This document shows positions 5,871 through 64,000 of a stretch of DNA of 64,000 nt, in pieces (the first letter of the stretch is position 1; the number at the start of each line of letters is the position of its first letter). The notes under the pieces are model-generated. The model made no database searches and was not told where the DNA came from. It worked only from the letters and a program-made list of their open reading frames with translations. The DNA lies in the NCBI RefSeq assembly GCF_004210375.1, contig NC_134831.1:43186035-43250034 (forward strand), given 5' to 3'. Source of the DNA: Tachypleus tridentatus (lineage: Eukaryota > Arthropoda > Merostomata > Xiphosura > Limulidae). A program made the translations under genes and the position numbers.

Positions 5871-6630
5871 ATAATACTTAAGAATTGCTATAAGTAATGG
5901 TCAAACAATGAAGACCAAATAACCAATACACTTTTTACAGTTGTACTTGTATGGTTGATTAGTTACATGTTTTATGACCCTCGATGTGCATAACTATGGA
6001 TAAATTTTTTCCTAATTTTGTTAAAACTATAAAGTACTAGTTTTATTCGTATAGAAAATTAGCAGAATGGAGGTTCGATTCTTGGTGTCAGTTGCTGGTA
6101 TTTCCTCTTTTATCTGGCACTCGGTACAGGACTAACGTTTGGAAACATTACTCCTTACATAACTTCTTACCTGAAACAAAGAGTCAATAAGGACACAAAT
6201 ATGAAAAAACTAGCTGGATTTTCTATGGATTTATATCTACATGTTCATTGTTGTACTTAGGAGGCAAACTAGGTTGTCTCATTGGACGTTGCTGGGGCAT
6301 TATTATTGGTTCTTGTATTTTTTGGTAAGATGTATGTTTCTATTTATATGTAATAATAACAATAAGTAATAGAAACAATGACAACAGGTCTGTTTAATTC
6401 ATGGATGTAAATAGTAATAATATACAATCTCAATACACCTGTAATTAACAACACTCGGTAAAGTTTGTATTAACATAGTGACGCCCTTACCATTTTCATT
6501 TTCAATATGCACGTATTATTAAATTAACTCGATTTCTTAATTCATTAAAATAATTAATAGAACTGATATTATGTTGTATTGCTAGAAGCAAGACAGGCAT
6601 TTGTTGTTAACTGAAATTTTGATTATTTAT

Positions 6631-6916
6631 GGCCCTGAATGGCCAAGCGTGTTAGGGCGTGCGACTCGTAATATGAGGGTCGCGGGTTTGCATCCAGGTC
6701 GCGCCAAACGTGCTCGCCCTTTCAGCCGTGGGGGCGTTATAATGTGATGGTCAATCCCATTATTCGTTGGTAAAAGAGTAGCCCAACAGTTGGCGGTGGG
6801 TGGTGATGACCTGCTGCCTTCTCTCTTGTCTTACATTTCTAAATTAGGGACGGCTAGCACAGATAGCCCTCGAGCAGCTTTATGCAAAATTTAAAAAAAC
6901 AAAACAAACAAACATG
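6631..6916 (+). repeat. tRNA-derived SINE family A, full length
   Basis: The tRNA-like head has an A-box-like TGGCCAAGCG and a B-box-like GGGTTTGCATCC. The body contains GGCGGTGGGTGGTGATGAC and GGGACGGCTAGCACAGATAG, and the 3' tail is (AAAC)n. A 10-bp target duplication (GATTATTTAT) lies at 6621-6630 and 6917-6926. It sits in intron 1 of MFS copy 1 and is absent from the other copies. Confidence 0.9.
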
Positions 6917-8596
6917 GATTATTTATAAATTTTGTATCCCTACTCCATGAAAGTTTTCTGTCCGAATTTTATTTTCTCAAAATTTAAGAAATTCAATGAA
7001 CATTGAGTTTACTTAGTGCAGAGTTAGAAAAGTTATTTACTGATAGAGGTGAGAATTATTGTTGTTTTTTTCTATTAAGTTACTCGATCAGTTAGTAAGT
7101 TTATAAGTTAATCCTACTTTTGTTTCAGAGCTTATATTGAAAATTTAATGTATTTGAAAATAGGCTTCAAAGTGAACGTCAGTATAGTAAACGTTTATTT
7201 AAGAAATATATTAACTTGTTATCATTATATAAATTGAAATTAGCATTATCTGTCAAATAACACTAATAAACCGACTTAGTAAGAATACACGTAACTGAAG
7301 TGGATTGCTGATAATATAATATTTCTTGAAATCTGAAGATGAAAACACGATACAAGATAGGAAATTTATTAGGAGTATGGAAACTAACAACATAGGAATA
7401 TGTTTTGTGAGGACTTTGTAACTCTCGGAACACAAATACAATACCAGTTAATTTGTAGCGATAATTTTACCACAAGCAGAGCACCAAAAATAACACGTTA
7501 CTGTCTACTAATGTACATCAACAAATCCTGCAGAAAGGAGTTTTTGTTTGTTTCAGGTAATGCTATTAACTGTCTCAAGAGATATTTCCATTATTAACTG
7601 TATTGACAACAGTTCACAGTTTGATCAGAAAAACAAAGATGACGTTGCGATATATGATTATGAAATATATTGGTATTACGTAGAAAAATTAGAAATATCA
7701 AAGTCATAAAATGGAACAGGAGAGATGGTAATCTTTCTTTAGACCTCAAAGACAGCTCAACATATAATATATACTTTTTGTTAATGTGAATGTTATGTGT
7801 ATGTAACTCTCGTAGTTCTCGTACTGGCGTATTTATTCAAGTTAAATAAAAAAAAAATAATTTCATCTGTTAGTTCTTGGATAGCAGCAACGTACTGGAG
7901 TATGCAACATAGCCTCGTAACAACGATAGTCACTTGAAGAATGATTTATACTTTGGGACTTGTCTGTTGTTATGGCCACCCAGTGGTCACTGCTGTCGAA
8001 GTAAGCACAGTTGTTTCGAAAACATCTCAATTAGAAATGATTGAAAAACAGATAATTTCATATTCCAATCGTTTAAAAACATTATATAAGTATTTTACTT
8101 CTATATCTATAAAGCACCATACATGTAAATATATACATCTATACATCCATGTTAACGTCTAAAGCTAATCTACAAAAGTAATACACGATAAATTAAGTCT
8201 TCAAATTATGTTAATTTTTGAATTATCCATACTTGTGTAAACTCTTAGGAAAAGGGTATTCGTAATTATTCCGCTGGGAATCTAAACTCTGTATTTGTCA
8301 CTTCACGTCACAATTCATTTCTGAAAATAAGAGATGTTATCAAATCCAAAATGAATTTATCCAGATACAAAATTTATAATATTGTCTGTACATTGCGATT
8401 TTAGTGAAGTGATTGAAAGGGGGCCATTATGGGGATACCTTGAAACTTTATAACTGTATTAAGTTCATTTTGTACTTCAAGTACATAGACTAACAACTAT
8501 AGAAGGTTATAATTCTGTTGCTAAGCAACATGTTTAAAATACATTTTGGATCGTGGTATTACCAACATATCAGAGGTAAGTCTAATTGATGTTTAC

Positions 8597-8720
8597 CTCT
8601 CAGTGGCAGAACACTATGTCTTCTGACCTAAAGCTAAAAAAAACAGGTTTCGATACACTATGTTGGCTGAGCAGAAATAGGCAATTGTGTAGATTTGTGC
8701 TTAATTCAAAACAACAAAGA
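8597..8720 (+). repeat. tRNA-derived SINE family B in intron 2, unit 1
   Basis: Head CAGTGGCAGAACACTATGTC, B-box-like GGTTTCGATAC, and tail GTGCTTAATTCAAAACAAC. Counterparts are at 25150-25250 and 43101-43216, so it is an old insertion shared by the units. Confidence 0.7.
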
Positions 8721-11700
8721 CAACTAGTTGATTTCTAATAATTATTATTATGTGAATACGTCACGAATACATTTTCTGAATGACCTTTATTTTGGTTCAT
8801 TCACAACGGAATTTACTGACATTTGACTGCCTTCAGTGCTTGTTTACTGCCTCTACCTTAAGGAAACTTGATTTGACAAAAAATTATTTCTGGGTTTAGA
8901 CATCACAATTGAGGTTAGAATAAACAACGGGGTGGCGATAATGGTGGCGATAGTGCCCCAACATATTTTGGCGTGCGGTATGCTCGTCAACTTGGAACTA
9001 TCACTATTCTGTAAACATGGTTTCGCTTTCTTTTATTATACACTTCTGAATAATCCAGTAAATCAAAAACAAAATATATGTGTCTGTTGATGCATATACA
9101 TATCGTTGCAATTGATAACCAGATAATATATAATTCATAAATACGTTTCTTTACTTACAAAGTGACATAACATTAAACTTGACTATTGCAAAAGACACGT
9201 CAAAAAATAAATTAAAAATTTTCACAGTTGTTTCCCAACAAGAAAGGCTTCGTGACATGGCTAGTTGCTTCAGGGTTAGCTGTAACTCCTCTCTTTATGA
9301 ATAATGTGCAGACATTCTTTGTTAAACCTAATAATCTACAACCTGCTTCTGATGGGTAAGTTTCAAATTTCTATAAACTTTCGATACGCTTTTATAAATA
9401 AAACACAGACTCCTAGTTTCAGTTTTCTTTACCTTATTATACTTTTTACTCAAAATCGTCAATGTCATCACATCTTTTTATTTTAACAGTTATTTCTTTC
9501 ACTGTATAAGTCCCAAATATTCAGAACATATTGGAAGAAAATAATAAAGATTGTAAAATCATACTATAATGGAACACTTTGTTATATGACACTGAAAAAA
9601 AATTACCGCGCGATGTGCAAACCACAACTTTGCAAATATTTTATTGTGTGTACATGTAGATTTGCTTTAGAAGTCACAATTTTCCCGTTTCGTCTCCGTT
9701 TCTAATTACGTAGAACTCTTCTTCATTCTCAGGGTACAAATATGACGTCATGAATGCATCTAACGCGGATGTAAATCGCTGGCACCAACTGCATAAATAT
9801 CATATTACTGTCTGTTGTATGTCCATGTAAATAATTAGCATGTTGTGGACAAATGAATATTTTGCTCCGTTTTTGGAACCACTACTTTGGCCCTGTTGAT
9901 GGAGTTTCACAAAATACCGCAAGAAGGTTTGTTGGTTCCATGAGGAGATATATGCGAACTTACGGTTTCATATTTTGTTTTTGCTGTTTTTACGGGCGTT
10001 TTCTTAAAATTATATATAAAGCAAACAACTCATTACTCATCTTTTTTATTTTAAATTATTTACAATATCTTCAAAAGATTATGCGTCAAATATTTTATGT
10101 GCTGAAACAAGGTGAATGGCATTTTAGGTTCCAGGCTATAGCAAGGTATTCGAAAGAGTGTATTACATCAGGAATTGAAACTATAATTTATCCATGATTT
10201 TTTTTATTAGATTTGTGTGTTGATTTCATTGTTTGTAGTTAAACATAAAGCTACACCTTGGATTATCTGTATTGTCGAACTCTAGTTTCTAACCTTACAA
10301 ATAAGTCCGCGTTAAGTGGAATGATGCTGTTCAAACTCATCACTGTAGTATTAAATTAATTCTTACGTCAGTTTAGCTTTTTATTAACAAGTAAATGTTC
10401 ATCATTCTTTCAGATAATTTTACAACGATGAAATTATAGAAAGTGTTCCTGCTTTGTTTCTGATAACGGCATGTTTTACGGGTGGCATTCTACTGATTGG
10501 GTTACTCATGTATAAAGAATTACCACAAGAATTTAAACAGGTTAGAGCAGTCTGAATGAAGTAGTTTATTAAAAAAACTTTAGCCTGCAAAGTAAATCTA
10601 ATTCATATTATATGAAAACGTTAGACTTATTCACTAGTGGCAGTTTTCGTTAAGCGAGCTGGGAATCTTTTAATTCTCAAAAGTTCTCAATAATTCTCGA
10701 TTATTCAGTTTCAACCACATTTCAACCTCTCTATATATATTCTCTTAACGCTCTAAAATGCTCCGTTTAACGTCTGCTCGTGTTTCACGTTGATCACATA
10801 ATTAATAAAAATCTAGATGATTTTCAAACATAAGTTGTTTGTAAGATAAGTAACTCCTCATTAAACCCAAACATGACAGTAAAAGAACTTTTCTTATTTC
10901 CATCACGTTTTCAAGCGCTTCATTATTTCTAGCAATACTATTTGAAAATAAGCGTAAGAGTTTTACAGATTATTGATAAGTACCATTACTCTTCGTGTTC
11001 CAGATATGTTTCATTAATTGAGGAGAACCTGTTTTTTTTTCTTCTTTCTTCAGTATTTAAGATTCTATTATTTAAAAAATTTAGTGTTACTACGTATTTC
11101 TGAAGAAATTTTGGCTTACTTGAACCAAAGCTGTGATGACAGGTGTTTATACCAATATATACAAACGTTGGTGGAATTAAATTTTCATATAAAGGGGCTC
11201 AGCCACTCTTTAATATTAATGAAATGTAGTGTTTTTCAAAGTAAACATCCTTTTGTAAAGTGATGGCTTTACAGATAATTTAAAAAGTTAGAAACGTTTG
11301 TACTTTTATTTTCCATAATATTATATTGTCAGTTTTTATACGTATAGAAGAACTTTATTCATATTTCTATTCCAGGAAAAAAATAGCATCGAGTGAAGTA
11401 ACACATGTGTGCAAAACGTCAAGGCATTCGCACATTAAAGAATTAAATACGAAAACTCTGGACTATATAAAAACAATAAATAATGAAAAACTATCTACAT
11501 CATTGGAAGAAACTCCAGCCAAAGCGAACGCTGATGACCAACAACCGTACAGAAATAATGAAGCTGAACTTCATGTGTCACCAACAGAAGCTCTAATAAA
11601 TGAAAGAATTTTATGTTTTGTCTATAGTTTGTATTAGCTCATCTTACCCATATATGTTTTTGAATGTTTTTTATAATGTAAGTGGTATTTGTAACTTTAA

Positions 11701-13435
11701 ATTACCGTAACTAAAATTAACTTTTAAAAATAATAATTTTATTGTCACTATAAACCGTCTTGATGTGCGACATGGAAAAACCTCTGCATGAAACCACTGA
11801 GTGCAGTTTTCTAACCTTATATAAAATAAGCAGAAGTTACATTTAGAAACTAAGTAACAACTCCAGGTCTGTGTTAAAACAATTTAACTGGAGTGATGAT
11901 AGAAAGCTTTTTTTATTTGAAAATTACTTTCTTACTGTTTTTCAGACATATGGACAGACGTTTATAGAAAACGATATATTTCTATATATCTTTGGTTCTG
12001 TAGCTGAAGCTGTTAATGCTCTCAGCCGGGTGACTATGGGCTTAATTCAGGACCAAATATTTTACAAGATAAAATCTTGTAAAGGGAAGTGATTGAACTT
12101 ATGTTGTTATTAAAAATTATTAAAATAATATTTGTTGTGTTAAATGTATAAAACCTTTATAGTTAAGCAGTAAGATAGAGAGTTAAGAATAATAAAACTT
12201 TTGTCTGAGCTCTGCCATATTACAGCATAGTCCATTCTTTGCTTTGTACATAAAGCAATAATATATCAGAGTTATTATTCTCAGAGATACTAAAATAGTG
12301 AAAATAATGTTTAAAACAACACTGTTTCGAAAAAGTATTTAAAACAGTTAAGTTTAACGCAAAGAAAATAATTATACGAACACTTTCAAATTACTCACCC
12401 AAAAAAGTCGATTTGATAAGTAATTAGTTTTTCTCACGAAAATGAAAGTATAAGAAACATGCAATTAATCCAAACATCAACATCCAGAACCTACATCTGG
12501 ATTAAACGTATTATGATTTTTATTTTTCCTTATAGGTGTTGTTTTATTTTTCTCGTATTTTAAATTCGTTTTTTAACTTTAGTCAGTTTAAGTTATAATA
12601 TATTATATTTTCAGTTTACGAGTCTTCTCTTGCCGAGAATGCAGACGGTATTACTTTTCATTAGCGACATCTCTTGATGGAAAAGTTGTATACATGATCT
12701 GGATTTGTGGTCTCTCTTTTACATTTTCTCTTGCTTTTGTCTGTATTCCAGCTGCTGTTGTTGAAGTTTTTGGATCGAAATACACTTCTAAATTTTCGGA
12801 ATGGTAGTTTTTACATCAGTAAGTACACAACATTTTTTATTGCTAAAACAAAACTAAATAAATCTTTCTATAAAGAAATTATTGAACTATACATACTCAT
12901 CTTTCTTTAAAACGAACCATCTTTGTAAAAGTATAATTACCTTAAAACGACCTTATCTTCAAGATTTGAATTTATCAGAAGTAAAGTTGATATATTTTTG
13001 CAATTTATAAAGCAAACATATCGAGTTTTAACTAATAATTCATGATTTTTCGACGGCTTCCTTCTTTCTCTGGTTTTTATTTATATATCGTATTATTTCT
13101 TTGTTGGGATGGTTTGATACATTTTGTATGACAGCGACTGTTTCTTGCACAGGTCAGAATGATTTCGTTTTAGTTTAGGAAAAAGAAGTGTTTTATTTTA
13201 CTGTATTTTGAAGATCAGCGTTTGTTTTTTATCATTTGTTTCCTTGGAAGAAAAATAAAAGTAAATAAATGTCTAATTCACAACGGAAATTAACTACTAT
13301 GTTTTTATGGTACTTAAAGCAGTCACAATCTGAGACACTCAATAGCAAGGAAGCCTTTATATTATTTGTATCCTAAGTGGTCTGATAAATTCCACTATGA
13401 AGCAAAATGCACTCGTTATTTCAAATAAAGCTTAT

Positions 13436-13714
13436 TTGTTTGTTTGATTTTGAATTTCGCACAAAGCTACTCGAGGGCTATCTGTGCTAGCCGCCCCTAA
13501 TTTAGCAGTGTAAGACTAGAGGGAAGGCAGCTAATCATCACAACCCACCGTCAACTCTTGGACTATTATTTTACCAACGAATAGTGGGATTGATCATAAC
13601 ATTATAACGCCCCAACGGCTGAAACGGCGAGCATGTTTGGCGCGACGGGGATGTGAACCCGCGACCCTTAGATTACGAGTCGTACGCCTTAACAAGCTTG
13701 GTCATGCCGGGTCC
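13436..13714 (-). repeat. tRNA-derived SINE family A in intron 8, unit 1
   Basis: Full-length minus-strand copy from the TTTGTTTGTTTG tail to the head (GGCGCGACGGGGATGTGAAC, GGTCATGCCGGGTCC). It is flanked by imperfect ATAAAG(C/T)TT repeats, the likely target duplication. The homologous intron in unit 2 lacks it. Confidence 0.88.
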
Positions 13715-14109
13715 GGGATAAAGTTTGAAGGAGCCAAAAGGTATTGGTAAAAATTAGATTAAGCGTAGCAGTGTTTTCTTGTGAGCAATGCAATGATGAA
13801 AATTATTTTCAGTTACTTAATTGAGGTGTTAGAGCTCTCACCACATATTGTGTACGAGATAGATATACATTTATCATGTAATATAAATGACAATGAAATA
13901 CTTTATAAATTAATGAACATATATTACGTGATTGCGTAATGATAAATAATTTATAATTTTTTCCTTATACGCCTGATTTTTTGTTTTTCTCTTTTCATAG
14001 GGATACTTGTGACTATATTTTTCTCTGACACACAACGTACACAACCACTAATATCAAGAAATTTGACGGGAACAGCGAGGTAACTAGTTACGGGTCTTTT
14101 GAACATTAC

Positions 14110-16712
14110 AAGTGACTTTCTTAATATTAATTTTCAGATGTTTTAAAACTATAACATCAACACAGCCCTCACTTCCTGTTTAATCATTATATAATAAAGT
14201 ATCGCAATGTTTGTTCATCTATAAATGATTTGATAAATAATTCTTTAACCCATCTAAAAGTATATTACCACAGAGATGTTGATCAGCTGTGTTATGAAAA
14301 CAAATTGACTGAAGACTAACCATTAATGTGACTGTTTCATCTAATTTGATGGCAGAAATTCTCTTATAGTGTTCAAAAGGTTTTCATGTCTGTATATCAC
14401 AGCTATTGTGTGGTTGACATATTATTATACGCTTTTATCTACCTTCATTAATAAGTTACTATTGGTAATGACCTTAATGTATTAAACGTTAAAGACAATT
14501 AATGAGGCTCTCTAACTATTGGAATAATATGTGTTTGGATTAAACTATCTCTTCTCACCAATTCTAGACATGGACTGTAAATTAAGTGTTCTGCCTGTAT
14601 TTCCTTCTTTAGAGAAACGAGTGTAACGTAACGTATATCCATTATATTATCATTGTATTCGAATTTTTAGAAACTTACTAGTTATTAGGCTGATCTAGAA
14701 CGTGTGGAAAGATAGTTAGTAAAAATATTCTGCTGGTGTTTGAAAACAGTCTTGTTACATGTGCTGATAGACTCACCGTAAATTGTACGTCGTAAAGTCT
14801 TTTATAAGTCGAAATAGTCGTATTAGGTAAAAACCTTAATCTTATGTTGTCTTCTCTATCTTTCCTTAACATGTTTGAAGCACCTAGAAGGATGTATATT
14901 CGTGTTTGTTCGATGTTGTTTGTATGCAAATGTGAATGGCTTCATTCGCCATATGAAACTGTGTCTACGGATAACCTTACTGTTTCCAACAGTACTGCGT
15001 CTCCGAGAAGAGAAATGACAAATACCTAACGTGTGGAAAAAAAAGGTGTGTTAATTGAAAATTATTCAATGTGACTCGTTGGTACAATCTTTTATGTTCC
15101 AAGAGGGTTGTATCGCAGACACTTATCAGTAAAGTAAAACTGACACTCATAAGATTACAAGTTATTACATGTAATATATGTTCTCTTTAGAGCAGACATG
15201 AGGTATTCGGTATTAATATTTATATACTGTGGTACGGAAAATTAAAGTAATCGTATTTTGTAATTGAAATGCAGTGACATAGTATTTGTATTCACTAAAT
15301 GGATTCATGAACACTTAATACTGTAAGAGTACATCGACTGTTCTTGCAGATTCGGTGACAATCCCGACACTAACAGGTTTCAGCCAGGGTCAGAACATTG
15401 TTACCTTCAGTTATGTAGTGCCATGTATTTATTGGCTGACAATTCAGATTGACAAGATGCACTCCAGATATAATTTCAATGTTGTCTCTACGGTGAAGAT
15501 ATCTGTTTACGTCTGGCTGACTCAGTATGAACATTCCACTTGGCTGGAACAATGGATCCCAGGTCTAAACACATCTGGTCTTTCACTAGAAGTACGATCC
15601 ATTAATTCAATGGAATGCTTCCTCAGCAAGATGTCAATAAATTTTCTCTAAAACCTAGTTTTGGAACCATAGAACCAAAAGAGGACTGATCCCCCTTGAA
15701 AGGAAGGAAAGCTGTTTAGTTTATTGTTTTAATCCAAGACACTAACTGCCTCATCTTCAGAAGATAGAGATGAGCACGTACGTAATCAGATAATATTTGT
15801 GTTTAGTGGTAGAGAATCCTGCGACGCTCTCTTTTCTGAGATTGTATCTTTGAATAGACACCAAATATAAAATTAATATGAGAGATATAACATTAAATTT
15901 AGGAAACACCTTCACATTAAAATTAAAAGTGAGTAGTATTGTTATTCAGGTAATAATTCGTTAATATCCAGTCACAAAGTTCACTCTTTTAATTTTCCAT
16001 TTGTAGAAATATATTTGGCTGTTACAGTTTACGTAATCATTATATTTTTGTTTTCACGAATACTTGACTTGTACTATGAAGGTCACTGATGTATATCATT
16101 GGACTTGAATAACAAACTTACTGTAACTACTAATCACACTGTATGCTGCTTTTAACATTAACTAAACTTTTAACTTACGTATATTACATTCCTTCTGATT
16201 GTAAACAAAGTTTTATATTAAAGAAGAACCCAAGAAGAGGTTTCTTTCAACTCTGTCTCACAAATACCAATTTGATTTTAAGTATTTTAGACAGTGAAAC
16301 GTGAAAACATAATCTTCAAGAAATATAATGATTGCAACGTAAATCAATGGATAAATCCCACGAATATCAGTTAACTGCCATTTCAGTTAAACAGGGCGCA
16401 CAAAAACCAACAACATTTAAGACGCTAAAACCATTTGTTGTTCAGATAAGGGATGATAAAATGTGAGAAAAATACAAACCTTGTTTTTACGATATTAAAA
16501 TTAGTAAATAAAAACATGTTTTCTTGTTTTATTTTCCTCATTTAAAAAAAAACAAAACGAATTTAATAGTAATAGGGAAACTGGATCTCTTTGTTTTCTG
16601 GAATAAGAACGATGCTATTCATTTCAATAATCTGATTAGACACCAATCAGTGATAGTTTAATTTAAATTCTTTAGTTGCCCTGCCGGATTAAAGTGGAGT
16701 TCTGGTAATATT
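14110..16712. other. Intergenic, unit 1; no gene recognised
   Basis: AT-rich sequence after the MFS pseudogene. 14317-15320 matches 30539-31800 in unit 2. Open frames on both strands at 15355-15651 and 15370-15552 overlap each other, have no recognised motif and are not found in unit 2 or 3. Confidence 0.5.
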
Positions 16713-16723
16713 TTGGAATAATG

Positions 16724-16983
16724 TTGTTGTTTTTGTTGTTTTGGAATTTCGTACAAAGCTACTCGAGGGCTATCTGTGCTAGCCGTCCCTAATTTAGCAG
16801 TGTAAGACTAGAGGGAAGGTAGCTAGTCATCACCACCCACCGCCAACTCTTTTACCAACGAATAGTGGGATTGACCGTCACATTATACGCCCCCACGGCT
16901 GGGAGGGCGAGTATGTTTAACGCGAACCCGCGACCCTCGGATTACTAGTCACACGCCTTAGGCGTTTGGCCATGCCAGGCCAG
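16724..16983 (-). repeat. tRNA-derived SINE family A with 11-bp target duplication
   Basis: Minus-strand copy, from its TTGTT-rich tail to the head (CCTTAGGCGTTTGGCCATGCC). The target duplication TTGGAATAATG lies at 16713-16723 and 16984-16994. The same 11 bases occur once, uninterrupted, in unit 3 (about 50765-50775), which is the empty site. Confidence 0.9.
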
Positions 16984-17029
16984 TTGGAATAATGATACAA
17001 ATAATTAACTCTTTCCTCTATTCTTTCAG

Positions 17030-17101
17030 ATTCACGAACCGCAATTTCTTTACTTGGTTGGCGTATGCATTATTCCGTTACTAATGGCGGGCATTGGGTA
17101 G
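17030..17101 (+). other. Possible terminal exon remnant (23 codons + stop), unit 1
   Basis: After a pyrimidine-rich stretch and AG, 23 open codons begin IHEPQFLYLVG and end in a hydrophobic run (CIIPLLMAGIG) followed by TAG. The same segment appears in unit 3 (50811-50882, same length and same stop) and, more degenerate, in unit 2 (from 34637). It could be the last exon of a neighbouring membrane-protein gene carried along in the duplication. Units 2 and 3 lack the acceptor AG, so at best it is a remnant. The family is not recognised. Confidence 0.3.
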
Positions 17102-17334
17102 CTAATCTACTTCATTTATAAGATATCACGAAAGTTTCAACCCAGTTACAAATGAAATAAATAAAATGCCAAATCAAATACTCTATAGAGTATCAAACAA
17201 TCTTATAATTGTTTTTATTACTACTAGAAAACATTACAACATTAAATGATTGTTTTTAGTAGTATATATTTGTGTATTACTATAAGTTAAAAACATAATG
17301 TGTTTTTTTTATTTTTATATTTCGTACTTTGTTA

Positions 17335-17830: not shown

Positions 17831-18130
17831 CTTAACACTTTTGTTTTATCGTTGTTTATTTTTTGTGCTTTTTGTGAAAAGTTTTACTCACACTGATTAT
17901 CTCTCCAGCAACTTCAAGGGACGGTTAGGGTAGATTTTTCGGCGCCCTGATCGTGAAAGTAGGTTTTCTCGGGGTACTCCCGTTTCCATTCATAGCAAAT
18001 TATAAGGTTTTTAACCTTAACCTCTCGCGGACAACCATTAGACCTTGGTCACTAGATTGCATTACAAACTCATAAACTTTAAATCTTGTCGGCTTAGCTA
18101 TTAATAATCAATCACTAGCCTAGATAAATT

Positions 18131-19975: not shown

Positions 19976-20048
19976 GATTTAATGTGAATTATTTATATAT
20001 GTTAAAACGGTTGGTATGGGTTGAGAAAATTCTATGTGGGTAAGCAAA

Positions 20049-22645: not shown

Positions 22646-22650
22646 CACAT

Positions 22651-50760: not shown

Positions 50761-50810
50761 TATTTTGGAATAATGATACAAATAACTAACTCTTTCCTCT
50801 ATTCTTCTCG

Positions 50811-51600: not shown

Positions 51601-52734
51601 ACTTTGTATATTTTTAGTGGTTTTTGTTATAAGCTTTACTAGCCCTGATTTCATTTTTCAGCAACTTTCGGGCATGGTCAGGTTGTATTTTTCAGCGCCC
51701 TGATCTTTCACGTAAAAATGGGTTTTCTCGAGGTATTCAAGTTTCCTGAGGTTTTTGAATCTATAGATCTCTACCCTTTTGGGTGTGTGTTTTTATGGGT
51801 TTTTTTTTGTAGAGTCACAATTTAACCTCTTGCTGACAACCATTGGACATTTGTCACCAGATTGTATTATAAAGTCGATAACTTTTAGTCTTGTGGTTTA
51901 ACTATAAATAATCAATCACTAGCCCATTTCAATTTTACATCACGAGTAGGGTGAAGATAAGGTCTCTTCATAGCGCCTTTAATTGCTTTACATCTCTTTT
52001 TAAGATGCAAAGTGTTAACTTGAAATAACTGCCACGAATTAATTTTTTTTTACGTGTGTGTGATTCCTTTTAGGTGTGTGATTGGTTTCCTGCTCGAGTC
52101 ACCGAGCGAAGAGGGCTGGATAAAAATATCGCCTCGGCGGAGGATTAGAATCCAGGACGCGTCGATAATTGCGCTCGGATTGCGGCGTGAGGTTTGGCGG
52201 TAGGACGGCGACGATTACCTGGTGGCCCGGAGGAATATTGGCGTGACAGGTTCTGGCATCTAATACAGTATGATAGCAGAGAGAAAAGATTTGTGTTTTG
52301 TGACTACAAATAAATAACAAGTACAGTTGGACTTCTGATAGTGCGACGGGTTTCGAGATTAGTGAACCGCGTTCAAATCGATGCGATAACATAATATAAA
52401 TTTTATACTTAAGCTATTAGTGTCTAATAAGAGTGACACACAATCTTTACTTTTGTGAGTGGAGTGAAGGAAAATGCTACTTACACGTTGTTATTTCCCG
52501 TAGGACAAACGCTAAACATTATAATCGATGGGTACAGCTTTCAACAGTTTCAATAAACACCAATAAAAATTGTTATATAAAAACAAATTTATTTTCTTCT
52601 GAGGCCTTTTGATATCAAGTTTATACGTTTGTCTCACGTTATACGATTATCTTTAAGTAGTAAGGTGAAATTCAACACAAAGTGTTTTATCTCTACTGTT
52701 AAACTAGCTTAATTTTGAACCAAAAGTTCTAAGA

Positions 52735-53030
52735 TGCCCTCCCAGTGGGGAAGCAGCAAAATTACGCACTTACAATGCCCAATCCTCGTCACAACAAACA
52801 TGCTCGCCCTTTCAGCCATAGAGGCGTTATACCGTCACGTTTAATCCCAGTTTTCGTTATTGAAACTTTAGCTTAAGAGATTTTGGTGGGTGGTGATGAC
52901 CAGCTGCCTTTCCTTTCGTCTTACATTGCTAAATTACGGAAGGCTAGCGCGGACATCCTTCGTTTAGCTTTTGCGCGAAATTCAAAACAAACAAATTACC
53001 CGATGAGTTATGGTTTGGTAGTTACCCGCC
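52735..53030 (+). repeat. Old composite tRNA-SINE, unit 3
   Basis: Counterpart of 2877-3120 but with a longer family A body: ACATGCTCGCCCTTTCAGCC near 52798 and the tail GCGCGAAATTCAAAACAAAC near 52973. Confidence 0.7.
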
Positions 53031-53604
53031 GTTGGTAATTAAAAAAAACTACAAGAAAGAGTACATACAATGCGAAAATTCCGGGCTCAATCGCCTACAG
53101 TGAACATGGGAGAGAACCAATGTGGCTTTGTTATTTGCCATAAAATAAACAAAGACAATCTTTCACAGAAATACCATTTGATTTTGCAAGTAAAAACAAA
53201 AGAGTTGAGATATTAAAATCGTAGATTTAATGTTTTACGTATAAAACGAAATAGTAAATACAAAGGGTTAAGAAATTAGGTTAAATTATCAATTAAGTTG
53301 TGTTGCTATAGAGATAAGGTCATGTAGCCGTATTATTAAATGTCGAAACACATCTTTCAGTAAGGCTATTGATGTCACATACGTTCTTATTTTGCATGTA
53401 CCTCGAAAATAAAATAATTATGTTTACGTATATATCTTGTAGATTTAAAGCTAGTTTGAAAGAAACTTTATATTCAAAATGCGTTGTTTTTTAAACTCGG
53501 TATTCAACTTTTAACCACCATCGTTATTAAATCCTGAAATTTATCAATATGAGCACTGAAACTCGCTATTAAAATACTGGCATACTGGATTATATAGTTT
53601 GTTT

Positions 53605-53865
53605 TGTTTTGAAATTCGTGCAAAACTACACGAGTACAGGCTGTGCTAGTACTCCCTAATTTAGGAGTGTAAAACTAGAGGGAAAACAGACGACCCACCG
53701 TCAACTGTCGGGCTACTGTTTTCTAACGAATAGTGAGATTGTCCATTACGTTATAATGCTTCCATGGCTGAAAAGGCGAACATGTTTGGTGCTACGAGGT
53801 TTGGAATCCGCGACCCTCAAATTTCGAGACGAGCGTCTCAACCACCTGGACATTTCGGACCAATA
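53605..53865 (-). repeat. Diverged SINE family A, unit 3
   Basis: Counterpart of 3710-3972, with reversed tail, body and tRNA head (CCGCGACCCTCAAATTTCG). The 80-codon open frame at 53756-53998 runs through this repeat and into the PLE end, so it is not a gene. Confidence 0.65.
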
Positions 53866-53937
53866 TATATTTAATGTGAATTATTTATATATATTAAAAA
53901 GGCTGGTATGGATTGAGAAAAGTCTATGTAGAGAAGC

Positions 53938-53974
53938 GAAAACGTTTCGACCTTCTTCGATTATCGTCAGATTC
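53938..53974 (-). ncRNA. Inverted hammerhead motif, 5' end of PLE (unit 3)
   Basis: On the minus strand: GAAT, CTGACGA, a weak stem II around GAAGAA, GAAA, CGTT, TTCGC. The core is kept. The base after CGTT is T where the 3' copies have G, so stem I is poorer. Confidence 0.55.
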
Positions 53975-54036
53975 ACAAAGAAAGTGAGAGGTAACTGACC
54001 GATAGCTGACCACATGTTTGAAGTCGGTGGCCTAAT

Positions 54037-54960
54037 GGCCTAAGCATGAGCAGTTTAGTATCACCAGTTCTAGCCAATATTTTTATGACACAAGTTGAAA
54101 CACAAACAATTAACACAGCATTACTTCCACCATTATACAAGTACAGATATGTAGACGACACGATTCATATGTGAACAAGAAGAAAGCAATCAAATATCAT
54201 TTCTTAACTTCAAAATTACAAGAACCGATAGACAGTTTAAAACAGAAATCCACCGAAAAATCACCCATACTTGACTCTACATTCCTTGAAACTCAGCACA
54301 TGAAGCAAAACGAAAAGTCAACATACTAATAAACCAAATAAACACAGCCATAAAACTATGCTCGCCAGATATAATTAACGACGAATTAGACAAAATAAAA
54401 TAATACTTCATCAACATCAATGCGTTTCTTCCACAAACAGTAGAAAACATTATACGCATACACGTAGGCAAAAAGCAAAATCAACTAGAAAATATACCCC
54501 ACGAGTTAAACACTCTCGAAACCATATACTGCTGCCTACCATATATTCCTGATATCAGCAGAAAAATAAATAACATTTGGGAGAAACTAGTAACAAAATA
54601 TGACATTCCAAATGATTATAATTTATTCAAAAACCAGGCACAAAACTAAGGTCTATACTATGTAATATCTACACTGACAAACACAACACAAACATTATTT
54701 ACAAAATACAATATGATAACTGCCCAGACTTCTATATTGGAGAAACAAGTAGAAAAATGGAAACCAGATTCAAAGAACACAAAAAGTCACCTTCACACTT
54801 TTTCGAACACTGCAAATCAAATAAACACAATATAAACATAAAAAACCCTGAATTACTAAATAAACAAAAATACATACCTGACAAAAATTAAAGAAACCTT
54901 ACTTATCCAAGAATTGAAGCCCAAGATAAGCCAACACAAAGGAACACCTTAATACCTATA
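54037..54960 (+). pseudogene. PLE RT and GIY-YIG endonuclease, broken
   Basis: Across frames: SLVSPVLANIFMTQVETQ, YRYVDDT, a deletion of about 80 bp, LNFKITRTD, DELDKIK, TVENIIRIHV, then NIIYKIQYDNC, FYIGETSRKMETRFKEHKKSPSHFFEHC. The endonuclease block keeps the canonical YIG and is the best preserved of the three, but stops and shifts lie upstream (for example near 54402 and 54625). Confidence 0.82.
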
Positions 54961-55073
54961 TTAATAAATATAATCAAACATTTACGCACGTCCTCAACAT
55001 TCCTACACTCAATTACACAACCCCCCTTAAACATGTGTTCAGATACGGATCAGTTACCTCTTTCTTTATTTAT

Positions 55074-55111
55074 GAATCTGACGATGACCGAAGAAGGTTG
55101 AAACGTTGTTC
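55074..55111 (+). ncRNA. Hammerhead ribozyme, intact core, 3' end of PLE (unit 3)
   Basis: GAAT, CTGACGA, stem II GACC/GGTT (terminal G-T wobble) with a GAAGAA loop, GAAA, CGTT, GTTC. Core and palindromic ACGT are intact. Confidence 0.78.
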
Positions 55112-55199
55112 GCTCCTCTACATAGAATTTTCTCAACTCATACCACCCGTTTTTACATATATATTTTACACTACAAGTGGGTTTTCTCGTCATCAAAGA

Positions 55200-56870
55200 A
55201 TATGAATTATTGTTTTGTATATGATAGAAAAGTTATTTTCTAACAAATTCATTACATATACAAATGCTTACATCATTCCTGTCTTGTTTATGTCAATAAC
55301 TGTAAAACAGTAAAAAGAGATTACACTTACATAAATGTCTGAAGCCATCTGTTCTAAAACACAAGGTTCCACATTCTTATACCTATGCATCTAAATTTAT
55401 TGAGTTTTTTCGAATGCACACAAATAGAACAGTTGTCATACAAGAATAGAAATAATTTGATAAAAGTTATTTTCCTCTCTGTGAAGACATAGCGTTTCTT
55501 AGTTTTCATATATCATATTTACTGTGACGGTTAAAATAACTCTAACTTTTTGTACAAAATATTTTTTTTTAAAAAGGAAAAAATAATACTGGACTCTTTA
55601 AGTAACTATTTTTGTTATATTTATAGCGGTAGTGGAAAGTAATTCAAAACAGTTACAGTATAAACATTACAAATTGAACTCTTTAATCTCGTTTCATAGA
55701 GACTTTTACTTTACTAATTACACAAAGATAAAAATATCTACTGTTTACAATGACTTGATATATTCCTGAATTACATTTGTTAGATACCACTTTCCTAATT
55801 CCAGTTTTATATATACTGGTTTTCTATTTATTCTAAACCTTTGATTCAGTAAATAGTTACACGTAGTAAAATAAATCAAATGTATCATGTATTTAACGTT
55901 CTTTATTATTCGATATTATGTCAGGATCAAGCAATCTTCGATCTCAAATGCAGTTCTAACAAAATTATGTGAAGCAAATGAGGTAAACCTTACACAACTA
56001 ATCTAAACAAAAGTATACTCAGATTGTCTAATGATGTGTGAATTTGCGTTTGAAGTTGTTTTTGGATGAGATGAGGTCCTAAATACGCCGCTATATAAGA
56101 TTTTCCGCTTCCATGGGGCACATTGAAATTTATAACATTCGAAATGATGCCCTGTTATTCTTGAGCCTTTAACAATCATGAGATACTATTAGTACAGTTA
56201 TTATACAACAAAAGAATAAAAAAAAAATTATTATAGAATACTTAGCCTTGTTTGCAATGTACCAAGACCAAAACTCGTTAAGGAAGAAGTTTTTTATATC
56301 ATTGAAACTGAGTGATGTTGGAAATATAATAACTTTTAGTAAGGTTTAAAGAATTTATTCCCTTTCATATTATTTGTTTTTGGCGTTAACAGAGTACGTT
56401 TTTTGACGTCATTTTTATTAATCCTTTTATGTGTGTAATTCTATGACACTGATTGACTGATTATATTATATAACAAAATTTTTACTTTTTGTTGTTCCTG
56501 GGTAAAAAGTGTTATTTCCCAATTGCTTATGCCTAAGTAAATGGTAAATACCTATTTTTCTCTTCAAACTTTGCTTTTGTCACCTAGGAGCGTATAACGA
56601 AAACATGATGGGAAACTATATTTGAAGGCTGATACGTAAAAGTGATTTACATTACAGTCCTAAATCTAGATAAACTACAAACGTTTAAAATTTTTTTTTT
56701 CTTTTTTGTACAACTTTAGTGTAAATACATGTAAATCTTGATTCATATTCTAAATTTCATTATCAAGTTCACAAAACAAAAGTTTGAAGAGAATAATGCC
56801 ATTTTCTGTATTTTATAACATAAGCAATTAAGAAGTAGCACATACTATCCAGTAAGAAAATTTGTGTTAC
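55200..56870. other. Unit upstream region, unit 3; no gene seen
   Basis: AT-rich sequence matching 20945-22645 and 38210-39925. No coding or RNA gene was recognised. Confidence 0.5.
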
Positions 56871-56874
56871 ACAT

Positions 56875-56982
56875 TTTTATTTCGAAATAAGCACGAAGCT
56901 ACACAATGGGCTATCTGTGCTCTTCCCACCCGGTTTCTAGCACCGTGAATCCTTAGTCATACCGCTGTTCCAATAGAAGGTC
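56875..56982 (-). repeat. SINE family B upstream of MFS copy 4
   Basis: Counterpart of 22651-22772: AAATAAGCACGAAGCTACAC, ATGGGCTATCTGTGCTC, CACCCGGTTTCTAGCACC. It is slightly shorter in the middle. Confidence 0.75.
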
Positions 56983-59900
56983 TATAATACTGAAGAACTG
57001 CTTTAAGTAATGGCACGACAATTAAGACATATAATCAATACATGTTTTACAATTTCAGTTGTATGGTGTGATTAGGTAAATGTTCTATAACATATATGTC
57101 CGTAAGTATGATAACTATTTTCTTAATTACGTTAAAACTATACAGTACTGGTTTTATTCGTATAGAAAATTAGTAGAATGAAAGTTCGACTCTTGGTGTC
57201 AGTTGCTGGATGTTTCCTGATTTATCTGGCACTTTGTACAATACTTACGTTTGGAAACATTACTCCTTACATCTCTTCTTACCTGAAACATAGAGACAAC
57301 AAGGACATGATATATGAAGAAACTAGCTGGTTTTTTTACTCATTTTTTCGCTACATGTTCATTGTTTTACTTAGAAACTAAGTTATCTTTTTGGACGTCG
57401 CTGGTGAATTGTTATTGGTTATTGTATTTTTTGGAAGAAGGTTTGTTTGTATTTATTTGTAATAATAATAATAATAACAAATAAAACAATGACAACTGGC
57501 CTGTTTAATTCATGGATGTAAATAGTTATAATATACAATCACAATACAACTGTAATTAACAAGATTAAAAAGATTGTATTAAAAAGAGAGACGTCGTTAG
57601 AATTTTAATTGAATAGAAATCGACAACTTTTTACTGTAATAAAGGGTTTACTTTAAGCTGTTTGGGTTTTATGAAGTGAAAATTAATCGTCACTTATCAT
57701 CTATTTCAGGTAAATGAATGTAACCTCTACCCTCTTCTCTTTTTAGTTTATGTACTTTGTGAGAGAGAAAATTCTACTTTTACTTTGCTATGGCTTTGTT
57801 TACTATTCGTTTGAATATCCTTGTGTAATTTTGTTAAATGTAGTTTAGTCGTATTCAAATGTTAAATCACGTTTTATTTAGTTCACATTAAAAATCAATA
57901 TACACATATTAATTTAACACGATTTCTCAATTCATAAAAATAATTGATCGCACTAATATTATTTTGAATTGCTAGTAAGAGGATAAGCATTATTTGTTAA
58001 CTGAAATTTTTATTATTTATATATTTTATATATTTTGTTTCCCAACTCCATCAAAATTTTCTCTTCGATTTCTTATTTTCTCGAAATTTATAAAATTCAG
58101 AGAATATTGAGTTTACTTAATGCAGAGTTAGAAAAGTTATTTTCTGATAGGAGTGAGAATTATTGTTGTTTTTGTTTGGCTATTAAGTTACTCGAACAAA
58201 TAGTACGTTCATAAGTTAATCCTACATTCGTTTCAGAGCTTATGTTGAAAATTTAAAGTATTTAAAAATCGACTTTAAAATGAACGTGTGTATAGTAAAC
58301 GCTTATTAAAGAAACATATTAACTTGTTATGATTATATAAATTGAAACTAGCATTATCTCACAAATAATACTAATAAACCGACTTAATAACAAAACACGT
58401 TACTATTGTGGATTGCTGATGACATAATATTTCTTCATCTCTGAAAATGAAAACACGATGCAAGACAGGAAATTTACTGGGAGTATGGAAATTAACAATA
58501 TAATAAGAAGTATTGTAAGGACTTTGTAACTCTCGGAACAGCAAACACAATTAAAATATCAGTTAATTTGTCGGGATGACAATTTTACACCAAGAAGAGC
58601 ACCAGAAATAGCATGTAACAGCTATGTCAATAAATCCTGCAAAATGAAGTTTTTGTTTGTTTAAGTAATGATATTAACTGTCTTTAAATGCATTGACAAC
58701 AGTTCATAGTTTGAGGAGAAAAACAAAGATGACGTTGCGATATATGATTATGAAATATGTTGTTGTTACGTAGGAAGATTAGAGATGGTGGCGCTATATC
58801 TGCACAACAAAAATATATTGTATAGATAAGGGAAGAGAAGGTAATCCAAAATAATGACACTGTTTTAATAGAGCAAATATCAAAGTGATAAAATTGAAAA
58901 CGAGAGACAGCTTTACATATAATATATATTTTTTGTTAATGTGAATGTCATATGTGGGTAATTCTCGTAGTTCTCGTACCAGCGTATTTATTCATGTTAA
59001 ATAAGGTATTTTTGTCTGTTAGTTTTGGGATAGCAGCAACGTACTGGAGTATACAACAGGGCCTCGTAACAACCATAATCACTTATGGAGTGATTGATAC
59101 TTTGTGACTCGAAACAATTGACTACAATGGATTACAATTGTTAATTCACAATGGAATTTACTGACGTTTGATTGCCTTCAGTGCTTGTTCTCTGCCTCTA
59201 CGTTTGTGAAACTTGATTTCGCAAAAAATTATATTTGAAGTTAGATATGAGAATTGAGGTTAGGATATATAACAGAATGGCGATAGTGGTTAGTGCCATA
59301 TTTTGAAGTGCTGTATGCTTGTTTACGTGGAACTGTCACTAATGTGTAGACATGGTTTCCCTTTTTTTTTATTATGCACTTCTGAATAATCCCGTAAATC
59401 TATAATAAAGTGGATTTGTCTTGTGATGCAAATAGATATCGTTGCAATAAAAACCAGATAAAATATAGTTCATTCAAAACGTTTATTAACTTACAAAATG
59501 ATATAACATTTAACTTGATTATTTCAAACGTCACGCCACAAAATAAATTAACTTTTTTTTCACAGTTGTTTCCCAACAAGAAAGGCTTCGTGACAGGGCT
59601 GGAGGATTCAGGGTTAGCTGTAACTCCTCCATTTATGAATAGTGTGCAGACATTCTTTGTAAACCCTAATAATCTACAACCTGCTTCTGATTGGTAAGTT
59701 ACAAATTTCTATAAACTTTCGTGACGCTTTTAGAAATAAAACACACACTCCTAGTTTCAGTTTTCTAGTACCTTATTTTACATTTTCCTCAAAATAATAA
59801 AAATTCTTACTTATTTTTGTTTTAACTGTCATTTTTTTCACTCTACAAGTCACAAATATTTAGTACGTTTTGGAAAAAAAAACTATGAAAATTGTAAAAT

Positions 59901-60736
59901 CATGATATTATGGAGATTTTACTTATATGACACTCATAAAAATTTCTGCGCGATGTGAAAACCCCATTTTCGCGAAATTTTTGTTTTGATGTTGATTTGC
60001 AATAGGAATCACAATTTTCCCGTTTCGTCTCCGTTTCTCATTACGTAGAACTTTATTTTTTCTTCATTCTCAGGTGTTTTTTTTTAATTATATACAAAGG
60101 AAACAACTTTTCATTTCCTAAGACAACCTTTGATTAATCATGAATTTACGTAAATGCCGTTTAGGGTACGGGAACACCAGCTAGTCGTATACAACCCCAC
60201 AGATCCTGCATATCATTGTTGGAATTCATTATTTATCATTTTTATTTGAAGATATTTACAATATCTTCAAAGGGTTATGTGTTATAGATAATTCTTTAAT
60301 TAAATTCATGAAATTTAGAAATATTAAATGTTAGTTGTTGAAAGAAGGTGAATAACATTTTAGATACCAGGCTGGAACAAAATATTCGAAAGACACAAAT
60401 ATTGTCTTTCATCAGGAATTAAAGCTATAATTTACATATGTGCTTTTTTTATTAGTTTTGTGTGTTGATTTCATTGTTTGTAGTTAAACATGAAGCTATA
60501 CTTTGGACTATCTGTATTGTCGAAACCTTTTCTCTAACCTTACAAATAAGTCCGTGTTCAGTGAAATGATGCTGTTCAATCCTATTACTAGAGTATTAAA
60601 TTAATTCTTACGTCACTTTAGTTTTTTATTAACAAGAAAACGTTCAACATTCTTTCAGATATTTTTACAACAATGAAGTTATAGAAAGTGTTCCTGCTTT
60701 GTTTCTGATAACGGCAAGTTTCACTGGTGGCATTCT

Positions 60737-60969
60737 GTTTGTTTTGGAATTTCGCACAAAGCTACTCGAGGTCTATCTGTGTTAGCCGTCCCTAATTTAG
60801 CAGTGTAATACTAGAGGGAAGGCAGCTAGTCATCACCACCACGAAAAGTGGAATTGAAAGTCACATTATAACGCCCCCACGGCGAGCATGTTTGGCGCGA
60901 TTCGGGCGCGAACCCGCGACCCTCAGATTACGAATCGCATGCCTTAACGCTCTAGGCCATGTCAGGCCA
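60737..60969 (-). repeat. tRNA-derived SINE family A inserted in exon 4 of MFS copy 4
   Basis: Minus-strand copy: tail GTTTGTTTTGGAATTTCGC, body AGCCGTCCCTAATTTAGCAG, head GGGCGCGAACCCGCGACCC and GGCCATGTCAGGCCA. A perfect 11-bp target duplication GGTGGCATTCT, itself exon sequence, lies at 60726-60736 and 60970-60980. An internal stretch (the CAACTCTTGG part) is missing. Confidence 0.93.
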
Positions 60970-61450
60970 GGTGGCATTCTACTGATTGGGTTAACACGTA
61001 TAAAGATTTACCACAAGAATTAAAACTGGTTAGAGGAACTTTAGATTGCAAAGTAAATGATATGAAAAAGTCCGACTTATTTACTAATGGCAGTTTTCGT
61101 TAAGCGAGCTGGGAATCTTTTAATTCTGAATAGTAAGGTTTGTGTGGACCAATGTTAACTTTCAACCAAATTATAAAAATAATTAATTTGCAATCAAATA
61201 TAGTGTTGATGCGTATTTCTGAAGAAGTGTTGACATGTGTGAACCAAAGCTGTTAGGAAAGGTATACTAATATATAGAAACGTTGGTAAAATTAAATTTT
61301 CATCTAAAAAGGCTCAGCCAGGGTATTAAATTAACGAAATTTATTGGTTTTTTGTAAGACAAAAGCCTCTAGTAAAATGATGGGTTTATCACATAATTAA
61401 GAAAATGAAGAATGTTGGCGCTTCTATTTTCTATTATATGGTATTGTCAG

Positions 61451-61569
61451 CCCCCCACTAGTACAGCGGTATGTCTACGGATTTATAACGCTAAAATCAG
61501 GGGTTCGATTCCCGTCGGTGGGCTGAGCAGATAGCCCGATGTGGCTTTGCTATAAGAATAACACATAAC
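61451..61569 (+). repeat. tRNA-derived SINE family B, intron 4 of MFS copy 4
   Basis: Head CCCCCCACTAGTACAGCGG, B-box-like GGGGTTCGATTCCC, body GAGCAGATAGCCCGATGTGG, and tail AAGAATAACACATAAC. The target duplication GTATTGTCAG lies at 61441-61450 and 61570-61579. This is the best-preserved family B copy in the window. Confidence 0.88.
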
Positions 61570-64000
61570 GTATTGTCAGTTACTATACATACAGAACAAC
61601 TGTATTCATATTTCTAACCCAGGAAGAAACAGTGTCCAGTAAACTAACACATATGTGCAAAACGTCAAGGCATTCGTGCATTAAAGAATTAAGTACAAAA
61701 ATTTCTGGACAATAGAACAACAATAAATAATGAAAAACTATCTACATCATTGGAAAAAACTCCAGCCAATTTGAACGCTGATGACCAACAACCGTAGAGA
61801 AAAAATAAAGCTGAACTTCATGTACAACCAACAGAAGCTCTTAAAATGAAAGAATTTTATCTTTTGTTAATAGTTTATATGAGCTTATATTACCCATATA
61901 TGTTTTTAAATGTTTTTTATCAGGTAATTAGTATATGTCACTATAAATTACCATATCTAAGATTAACCTTTAAAAATTATTAATTTTATTGTCATTATAA
62001 GCCGTGCGACATGGAACAAACTCTGCAAGAAATCATAGAGTGCAGATTTCTAACTTTATATAAAATAAGTACAAGTTATATTTAGAAACTAAGTAACAAC
62101 TCCAGAACTGTGTTAAAACAATCTAACCGGAGTGATTATAGAAAGTTTTTTTATTTCAAAATTATTTTCTTACTGTTTTTCAGACATATGAACAGACGTT
62201 TATAGAAGACGATTCGTTTTTATCTATCGTTGGTTCTGTAGCTGCAGCTGTACATGCTATCAGCCAGGTGACTGTGAGCTTAATTAAGGACAAAATATCT
62301 TACAAGGTAAAAACAAGGTGAAGTGAAGTGATTGGACTTATGTTGTTATTAAAAATTATTAAAATAATATTTGTTGTGCTCATTGTATAAAATATTTAAA
62401 GTTAAGCAGTAAGATAGAGAGTTTAGAAAAATAAAACTTGTGTCTGAGGTCTGCACTTTAACAACATAGTTCATTCTTGCCTTTGTAAATTAGGCGAAAA
62501 TATATCAGTGTGATAATACTCAGCGATACTGAGATAGTGAAAATAATGTTGAAAAAAAACTGTTTTGAAAAGTGTTTAAAACACTTTAGTTTAAAGTAAA
62601 GAAAATATTTATACGAACACTTTCAGATTACTCACCAAATCAGTCGATTTGATAAGTAATTAGTTTTCTCCTGAAAGAAAAAAAGGATAGTAAATGTTAA
62701 CCTAATCCAAACTCTGGACCGAATAATATGTATTTTAATAAGAACATATTTCTCGATTAAACATAATAATTTTATCATTTATATAGCTGTTGTTTTATGT
62801 TTCTTGTAGTTTAAATTTGTTTTTTAACTTCAGTCCCTTTAATTTATATATCTTTTATTAACGAGTCTTCCTTTGCTGCGAATAAAGTATTACTCTTCAC
62901 TATGGTGGTAACATCTCTTGAAGGAAAGGTTATGTACATGAATTCGGTTTGTGTTCTCTCCTTTACAATTTCTCTTGCTTTTGTTTGTGTTCCGGCTGTT
63001 TTTGCTGAAGTTTTTCGATCGAAGTACACTTCTAAAATTTTCGGAATGGTATTATTTACATCAGTAAGTATTCAACGTTATATCATTTTTTTATGTCTGA
63101 AACAAAACTAAATAAATGTTTCTGTAAATAAATTATTGAACTATAAATAGTCAAGGTTTTTAAAGACCAACCCTCTGGGAACGAGTATTTACTTTAAAAC
63201 CACGTTATATTCTAAATTTGAATTTATCAGAAGTAAAGTAGACATCTTTTTACAATACATAAAGTAAACATATGGTGTTTTAACTAACAATGCATGGCTT
63301 TTTATTTCAGACGGCTTCCTTCTTTTTTTGTCTTTTTTTATCCATCGTATTATTTCTTCGTTAGGATGGTTTGCTAGATTTTGTGTACAGCTACTGTTTC
63401 TTTCAAAGGTCAGTATGATTTTGTTTTAGTTTATGAACAATAAGTGTTCTATATTACTGTATTTTAAAGATGAGTGTTTGTTTTCTTATCATTCATTATC
63501 TTGGGAAAAAAAAAGTAAACAAATGTCTGATTCACAACGCAAATTAACTGCCACGTTTTTTCGTAATTAAAAACTGTCGCAATCTGAGACACTGAAGAGC
63601 AAGGAAAACCTTTATATTATTTGAAACCCAACTGGTCTAATAAGTTCTGCTGTTAAGCGAAATGCATCCTGTGTAATGGATGTATTATTATACACTCGTC
63701 TTTTTCGATCAAGCATAAGAAAGGAAAAAGGTACTGTTAAAAAATTAGATAAAGCGTAGCAGTGTTTTCTTGTGAACAATGCAACTATCAAAATAAATTT
63801 CAGTTACTTAATGATGGGATTAGAGTTATCACCACATATTGGTTATGAGATTGTTATAGTTTCATGTACAATAATCATGTAATATAAATTACAGTGAAAT
63901 ACTTTATAAATTAATGAACATATATTACGTGATTGCGTTATGATATATAATTTATAATTTTATTCCCATATGGCTGTTTATTTGTTTTTTTGCTTTTCAT

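Follow-up and report, generated by a model that had tools for sequence, protein, structure and literature searches.

The window analysed here is a stretch of 64,000 nucleotides from Tachypleus tridentatus (C7:43186035-43250034, contig NC_134831.1; the assembly has 2,167,478,450 bases in 205 contigs). It holds four copies of a nine-exon transporter gene of the major facilitator superfamily (MFS), with ATG codons at 6067, 22972, 40247 and 57178 and thus spacings of 16905, 17275 and 16931 bp (Table 1). Each gene copy is accompanied by its own downstream intergenic DNA, and the units follow one another head to tail and collinearly, as in a tandem birth-and-death array. The window opens inside a further unit, u0, and therefore includes portions of five units; the window end truncates copy 4. 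An original prediction, made from the sequence alone, had described copies 16.9, 17.3 and 16.9 kb apart with common exon boundaries and intergenic order, arisen by segmental duplication of the gene together with intergenic DNA. Self-comparison and collinear unit alignments confirmed this description. A blastn search of the window against itself (pairs of at least 150 bp, E ≤ 1e-10) gave 143 pairs. Forty-seven of the 48 pairs of at least 500 bp were direct repeats offset by one, two or three units (14.0-20.5, 32.5-36.5 and 49.8-51.5 kb), hence the period of about 17 kb is present, and many of the shorter pairs were copies of one short interspersed element (SINE). No such pair was obtained at the same thresholds when the window was shuffled ten times with dinucleotide composition approximately kept.

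With unit 3, which carries copy 3, as reference, chained alignments covered 11872 of 16905 bp of unit 1 (82.2 % identity), 12307 of 17275 bp of unit 2 (83.0 %) and 6036 of 6823 bp of unit 4 (81.8 %), thus 70-88 % of each unit at an identity of about 82-83 %; the partial unit u0 aligned over 4034 of 6066 bp (78.4 %). Identity between units 1 and 3 varied from 75 % to 89 % across the aligned blocks. The u0 pieces 1342-4001, 4689-5810 and 5815-6066 corresponded to unit-3 positions 10913-13643, 14689-15770 and 16682-16931 (77.5-80.6 %), and 1241-1342 matched units 1 and 2.

State and identity of the gene copies

The boundaries of the nine exons were common to the copies wherever the exons were present, and disabling lesions were found in all four copies, as had been predicted. 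Copy 1 had single-base frameshifts in exons 1, 5 and 9, a TGA in exon 2, a TAA at the start of exon 4, a lost donor GT at exon 6, a 5-bp and a 1-bp deletion in exon 7 and a lost acceptor AG at exon 8. In copy 2, exon 1 had a 117-bp deletion, stops occurred in exons 1, 2, 4 and 5, the exon-3 donor was deleted and exons 6-8 were missing. Copy 3 was the least damaged, with a TGA in exon 1 (40280), the loss of one base from exon 5 near 46149, a TAA in the exon-5 tail and a lost exon-5 donor GT. In copy 4, exon 1 had lost its donor and carried indels and a TGA, exon 2 was cut by a deletion, exon 4 was interrupted by a SINE, and exons 5, 7 and 8 were frameshifted. The lesions had been taken to differ in every copy; most were indeed private among the window copies, though one exon-1 codon is a TGA in both copy 2 and copy 4. 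Homopolymer errors cannot explain the four deaths, since every copy has at least one substitution, long-deletion or insertion lesion. A stop at u4:62807 and one T-run indel were rejected as exon-7 lesions of copy 4, as both lie outside exon 7 as finally set.

The joined exons of copy 3 matched Pfam MFS_1 (E 4.9e-14, 52.4 bits), which together with the common exon boundaries supports a nine-exon MFS gene, and matched NCBIfam models of L-lactate and oxalate/formate MFS transporters below their cut-offs. Pfam scans with single MFS exons were uninformative, likewise a PDB search with an exon-1 piece. An open copy outside the window, C7:42808315-42816094, reached 98.6 bits with MFS_1 (E 4.6e-28; curated cut-off 33.4). 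Its match to TIGR00890, the model of the oxalate/formate antiport (OFA) family, spanned positions 1-375 of 377 (E 3.6e-37) with 128.2 bits against a curated cut-off of 374.85; because the match is full length yet below the cut-off, we call the gene OFA-like and not an OFA member. A close known system is the bacterial L-lactate transporter SfMCT (NF049980; structure 6G9X), for whose model the open copy scored 118.8 bits against a cut-off of 320. The OxlT residues R272 and K355, which we take to belong to the substrate site, fell opposite an arginine and a threonine of the open copy in a weak pairwise alignment with hand-counted positions. By sequence, the oxalate:formate antiporter OxlT (PDB 8HPJ/8HPK) was the best solved relative (E 5.8e-6). 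The full-length profile match thus likens the open copy to OxlT and the OFA family, whereas the score below the curated cut-off sets it apart and the threonine opposite K355 may do so. As judged by homology, the array gene is an animal MFS transporter related to the OFA branch and of carboxylate type.

Table 1 Units, gene copies, copy-3 exons and mobile-element fragments in the window
Feature	Position	Strand	Basis or remark
Unit u0, intergenic part upstream of copy 1	1241..6066	+	self-blastn, unit alignment
Transposase fragment	4257-4553	-	DDE_3, E 3e-5, below cut-off
Unit 1, gene copy 1 and downstream intergenic DNA	6067..22971	+	16905 bp
Copy 1 (u1), pseudogene	6067..14109	+	exon-by-exon comparison
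Reverse-transcriptase fragment in unit 1	18134..18748	-	RVT_1, E 1.5e-5, below curated cut-off
Unit 2	22972..40246	+	17275 bp
Copy 2 (u2), pseudogene	22972..28148	+	exon-by-exon comparison
GIY-YIG fragment in unit 2	37649..37879	+	E 0.0023, below curated cut-off
Unit 3, reference unit	40247..57177	+	16931 bp
Copy 3 (u3), least damaged of the four	40247..48466	+	exon-by-exon comparison
Copy 3 exon 1	40247..40506	+	
Copy 3 exon 2	42126..42252	+	
Copy 3 exon 3	43712..43839	+	
Copy 3 exon 4	44991..45117	+	
Copy 3 exon 5	45966..46264	+	
Copy 3 exon 6	46498..46620	+	
Copy 3 exon 7	47074..47283	+	start inferred
Copy 3 exon 8	47534..47633	+	
Copy 3 exon 9, ending TAG	48357..48466	+	
Copy 4 (u4), pseudogene, runs past window end	57178..64000	+	exon-by-exon comparison
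SINE in exon 4 of copy 4	60742..60966	-	11-base target-site duplication; same insertion in twin block

Copies beyond the window

For the decay of every visible copy the original prediction had offered two explanations, a functional member outside the window or a loss of the family after its expansion. The assembly search revealed a working-looking copy, C7:42808315-42816094, about 380,000 bases from the window, whose nine exons, placed by homology, form an open frame of 488 codons with GT-AG at all eight junctions; its splicing and function are predicted. Sixteen copies were examined beyond exons 1-2: the four of the window, ten in C7:42.74-42.94 Mb, and those at C7:86.42 (86422680-86431040) and C7:46.40. 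Among the ten, several were truncated and one was cut by the end of the stretch read; exons 2 and 3 of the C7:46.40 copy were not found. The copies C7:42.904 and C7:86.42 were complete except for two and one single-base frameshifts, respectively, located in T runs, and are thus each either very recently dead or mis-assembled; C7:42.904 was rejected as an intact copy for its two frameshifts. One open copy lies beside several nearly intact and numerous wrecked ones in a family of several clusters. The first of the two explanations is thus supported, whereas neither a loss of the family nor the supposition that the array is an unusual case finds support.

The extent of the family was estimated with two probes. 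Window bases 40000-41500 served as a 1.5-kb DNA probe (40 of 178 first-look candidates scored), an 81-residue exon-7 peptide as protein probe (150 of 174 candidates scored). The totals are lower bounds; a few places matched in two pieces, and the weakest exon-7 matches, at 31-37 % identity, may represent other superfamily transporters. Among the candidates scored, the DNA probe gave at least 68 matches, all but one (on C106) on C7 and clustered at 42.75-43.25 Mb (plus strand), 45.96-46.68 Mb (minus strand) and 86.34-86.42 Mb (plus strand). The exon-7 peptide gave at least 131 matches, clustered on several contigs: on C7 at least 19 at 42.7-43.3 Mb, 26 at 45.9-46.7 Mb, 5 at 86 Mb, 32 at 156-159.2 Mb and 3 elsewhere; on other contigs at least 17 on C9, 12 each on C10 and C13, 2 on C106 and one each on C5, C11 and C12. 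Between the window end and 45.95 Mb on C7 neither probe had a match among the candidates scored; copy 4 contains the last match found for its cluster, and the window therefore probably covers the downstream end of the 42.75-43.25 Mb cluster.

Many stop-free exon-7 matches were observed in further clusters on C9, C10, C13 and C7:156-159 Mb. In the cluster at C9:164-165 Mb, 11 of 13 exon-7 matches were without a stop, although exon 7 alone does not prove an intact gene. Of two 10-kb samples, the one from C9 (L030) had a stop in exon 1, while that from C13 (L031) showed matches to exons 4 to 8 without stops. Some exon-7 matches contain a single TAG, which at least in C7:42.808 sits on the acceptor AG before the exon as set. 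Twenty pattern matches to relatives in viral contigs were obtained, none was confirmed.

Several match pairs between the opposite-strand clusters of C7, about 2.7 Mb apart, had nearly constant coordinate sums of about 89.49 and 89.61 Mb, a pattern as for large inverted duplications. One copy of the opposite-strand cluster and one of the forward cluster (L006-L007) were 95.8 % identical over 3.4 kb. The probe hits in C7:86.34-86.43 Mb and C7:42.83-42.91 Mb, 43.5 Mb apart on one contig, formed corresponding series; C7:42.904 and C7:86.42 were 99.24 % identical over 4.5 kb. This likeness is either a very recent segmental duplication or an assembly duplicate. At C7:46.54 two copies lie 5.8 kb apart with 99.8 % identity.

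History of the array

A twin of most of the window was found about 320 kb upstream: window 10792-63674 matched C7:42.872-42.924 Mb in pieces at 93-97 % identity, which shows that about three units were duplicated together as one block. Window 1857-8711 matched just upstream of the twin at only 88.6 %, in a search that kept matches of at least 88 %. Copy 1 and its twin both have the exon-6 donor loss and the exon-7 deletions, copy 2 and its twin the exon-1 deletion, copy 4 and its twin the SINE in exon 4. These common lesions indicate that copies 1, 2 and 4 had already died by the time of the block duplication. None of the four lesions of copy 3 occurred in its twin.

Changes between copies were counted at first and second codon positions, at third positions and in non-exon DNA, using the final exon set. 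Between C7:42.808 and C7:86.42, 61 of 990 first and second positions (6.2 %), 58 of 495 third positions (11.7 %) and 687 of 5039 non-exon positions (13.6 %) differed; first and second positions were conserved against non-exon DNA (P 3.3e-12) and against third positions (P 3.5e-4). The comparison of C7:42.808 with copy 3 also revealed constraint against non-exon DNA (P 5.2e-10). Copy 1 and its twin, compared over the gene part within the 93-97 % block, differed at 35/668 first and second, 14/332 third and 142/3654 non-exon positions (P 0.11 for first and second against non-exon), copy 2 and twin at 17/502, 15/254 and 186/4433 (P 0.48), copy 4 and twin at 24/565, 13/282 and 109/2845 (P 0.63). 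For copy 3 and its twin the counts were 26/989, 19/493 and 308/6701 (P 0.0034). Copies 1, 2 and 4 thus show no constraint since the block duplication, copy 3 some. Together with the absence of lesions in common with its twin, this suggests that copy 3 died later and was probably open when the block was duplicated. An older exon set, in which exon 7 began 81 bases earlier and the exon-5 tail was left out, was used for changes private to single window copies: copy 3 had fewer at first and second (34/862) than at third positions (30/427, P 0.020) and also fewer than in introns (P 0.00065); in copy 1 the trend was reversed (54/862 and 17/427, P 0.094), and copy 4 showed no trend (P 0.35).

These results are very probably explained by birth-and-death evolution of a large tandem and segmental array of OFA-like MFS transporter genes, and not by a loss of the family. 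Units of about 17 kb, consisting of the gene and intergenic DNA filled with transposable elements, would have been duplicated head to tail, and blocks of several units then duplicated again, as the twin block shows. The copies would die singly, through substitutions, indels, deletions or, in one case, the insertion of a SINE, and elsewhere at least one stayed open with codon constraint; copies 1, 2 and 4 would have been dead before the block duplication and copy 3 probably open until later. In this reading the window is a decayed part of one cluster, situated at its downstream end or close to it.

Several observations weigh against this explanation. Only one of the 16 copies examined was fully open and 15 were broken, and the first stop of the open copy, at codon 489 of 495, comes six codons earlier than the stop position in copy 3. 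Exon borders rest on homology and phase rather than on transcripts, and the start of exon 7, set from paralogue alignments and the open frame of C7:42.808, was partly chosen because the frame stays open. Between copy 3 and its twin, first and second positions did not differ significantly from third positions (P 0.20), so that the case for constraint on copy 3 comes from the comparison with non-exon DNA. Window copies compared with one another showed a weak contrast between codon positions (six pairs, P 0.015-0.44), which would be expected had they diverged to a large extent after death; with the older exon set, nonsynonymous/synonymous ratios were 0.58-1.90 with a smallest one-sided P of 0.054. 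Copies 1 and 2 also have some stops that their twins lack. Unequal exchange as the mechanism of the unit duplication is the simplest assumption.

That the family expanded and was then wholly lost, with C7:42808315 recently dead yet open by chance, is unlikely. The proportion of broken copies and the frameshifts in the otherwise complete copies C7:42.904 and C7:86.42 would fit such a loss; however, these frameshifts in T runs may be assembly errors, an open copy was found, its codons were constrained against those of C7:86.42, and most exon-7 matches of the C9:164-165 Mb cluster are stop-free, insufficient as exon 7 alone is. We consider it very unlikely that an already dead gene was duplicated as a passenger and that the window copies never functioned as copies. 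Divergence was nearly flat by codon position in some window pairs such as u2-u3 and u2-u4, and at the block duplication three pseudogenes were indeed copied, but most lesions are private among the window copies, none was seen in common to all copies including the open one, the open copy exists, and its comparisons with C7:86.42 and copy 3 reveal constraint against non-exon DNA. It is highly improbable that the dead units are a reservoir feeding the few live transporter genes by gene conversion along the collinear multi-block array, whose C7 clusters at 42.75-43.25 and 45.96-46.68 Mb lie on opposite strands. That the copies are one locus assembled several times, as haplotigs or as falsely expanded repeats, would fit locally the near identity of the pairs C7:42.904/C7:86.42 and C7:46.54; for the window it can practically be dismissed, because the window copies differ by 13-16 % in non-exon DNA, far above usual heterozygosity, and carry copy-specific deletions and SINE insertions with target-site duplications.

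Birth-and-death evolution of the array is itself an ordinary explanation; the scale of the expansion is its most interesting part. The apparently extinct array of the window is a local sample of an expanded family, carboxylate-type by homology, whose exon 7 gave at least 131 matches in this genome. The twin block is in addition an ordered natural experiment: of four neighbours duplicated jointly, three were dead and one was probably open at the time, so that change with and without constraint can be told apart. Olfactory receptors and P450s are birth-and-death families of tandem genes. With these and with the burst of ABC genes described for the spider mite (PMC3724490) the array has in common head-to-tail duplicates, interleaved open and dead copies and block duplications; it differs in its long units rich in transposable elements and in clusters of opposite orientation. 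For the mollusc Sinonovacula constricta, 54 monocarboxylate transporter (MCT) and 16 SMCT genes, expanded by tandem and dispersed duplication, have been reported (PMC11939762). By its description this is likewise an expanded invertebrate family of carboxylate-type transporters, whereas its abstract mentions no pseudogene array. Titles and abstract openings of the papers listed in literature searches yielded nothing on the present array or on tandem OFA-like genes in arthropods.

Mobile elements and smaller repeats

The SINE of about 280 bp, by eye presumably tRNA-like, is present in the window in 12 listed copies or fragments of at least 120 bp. Scans of the window for tRNA genes and Rfam families had no result, and no tRNA was called in the SINE. 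Target-site duplications were visible by eye at 16724, 19214 and 60742. In places the SINE occupies common unit positions, elsewhere it interrupts a single unit, thus it moved before and after the duplications. Its sequence may resemble a horseshoe-crab SINE consensus, and the introns, SINEs and Penelope-like fragments fit a genome of animal type. The GIY-YIG fragment of unit 2 has a counterpart in unit 3 at 54622-54888 (compared by eye); together with the reverse-transcriptase fragment of unit 1 we take it for a Penelope-like element, and the DDE_3 transposase fragment is presumably mariner-like.

Three short tandem repeats were found in the window. The segments 223-524 and 546-849 are a local direct duplicate with 75 % identity, and window 1-1240 matches C7:42.863-42.865 Mb without a match in the other window units. 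Outside the window, C7:42767131-42768401 consists of two 637-bp head-to-tail copies with 99.4 % identity.

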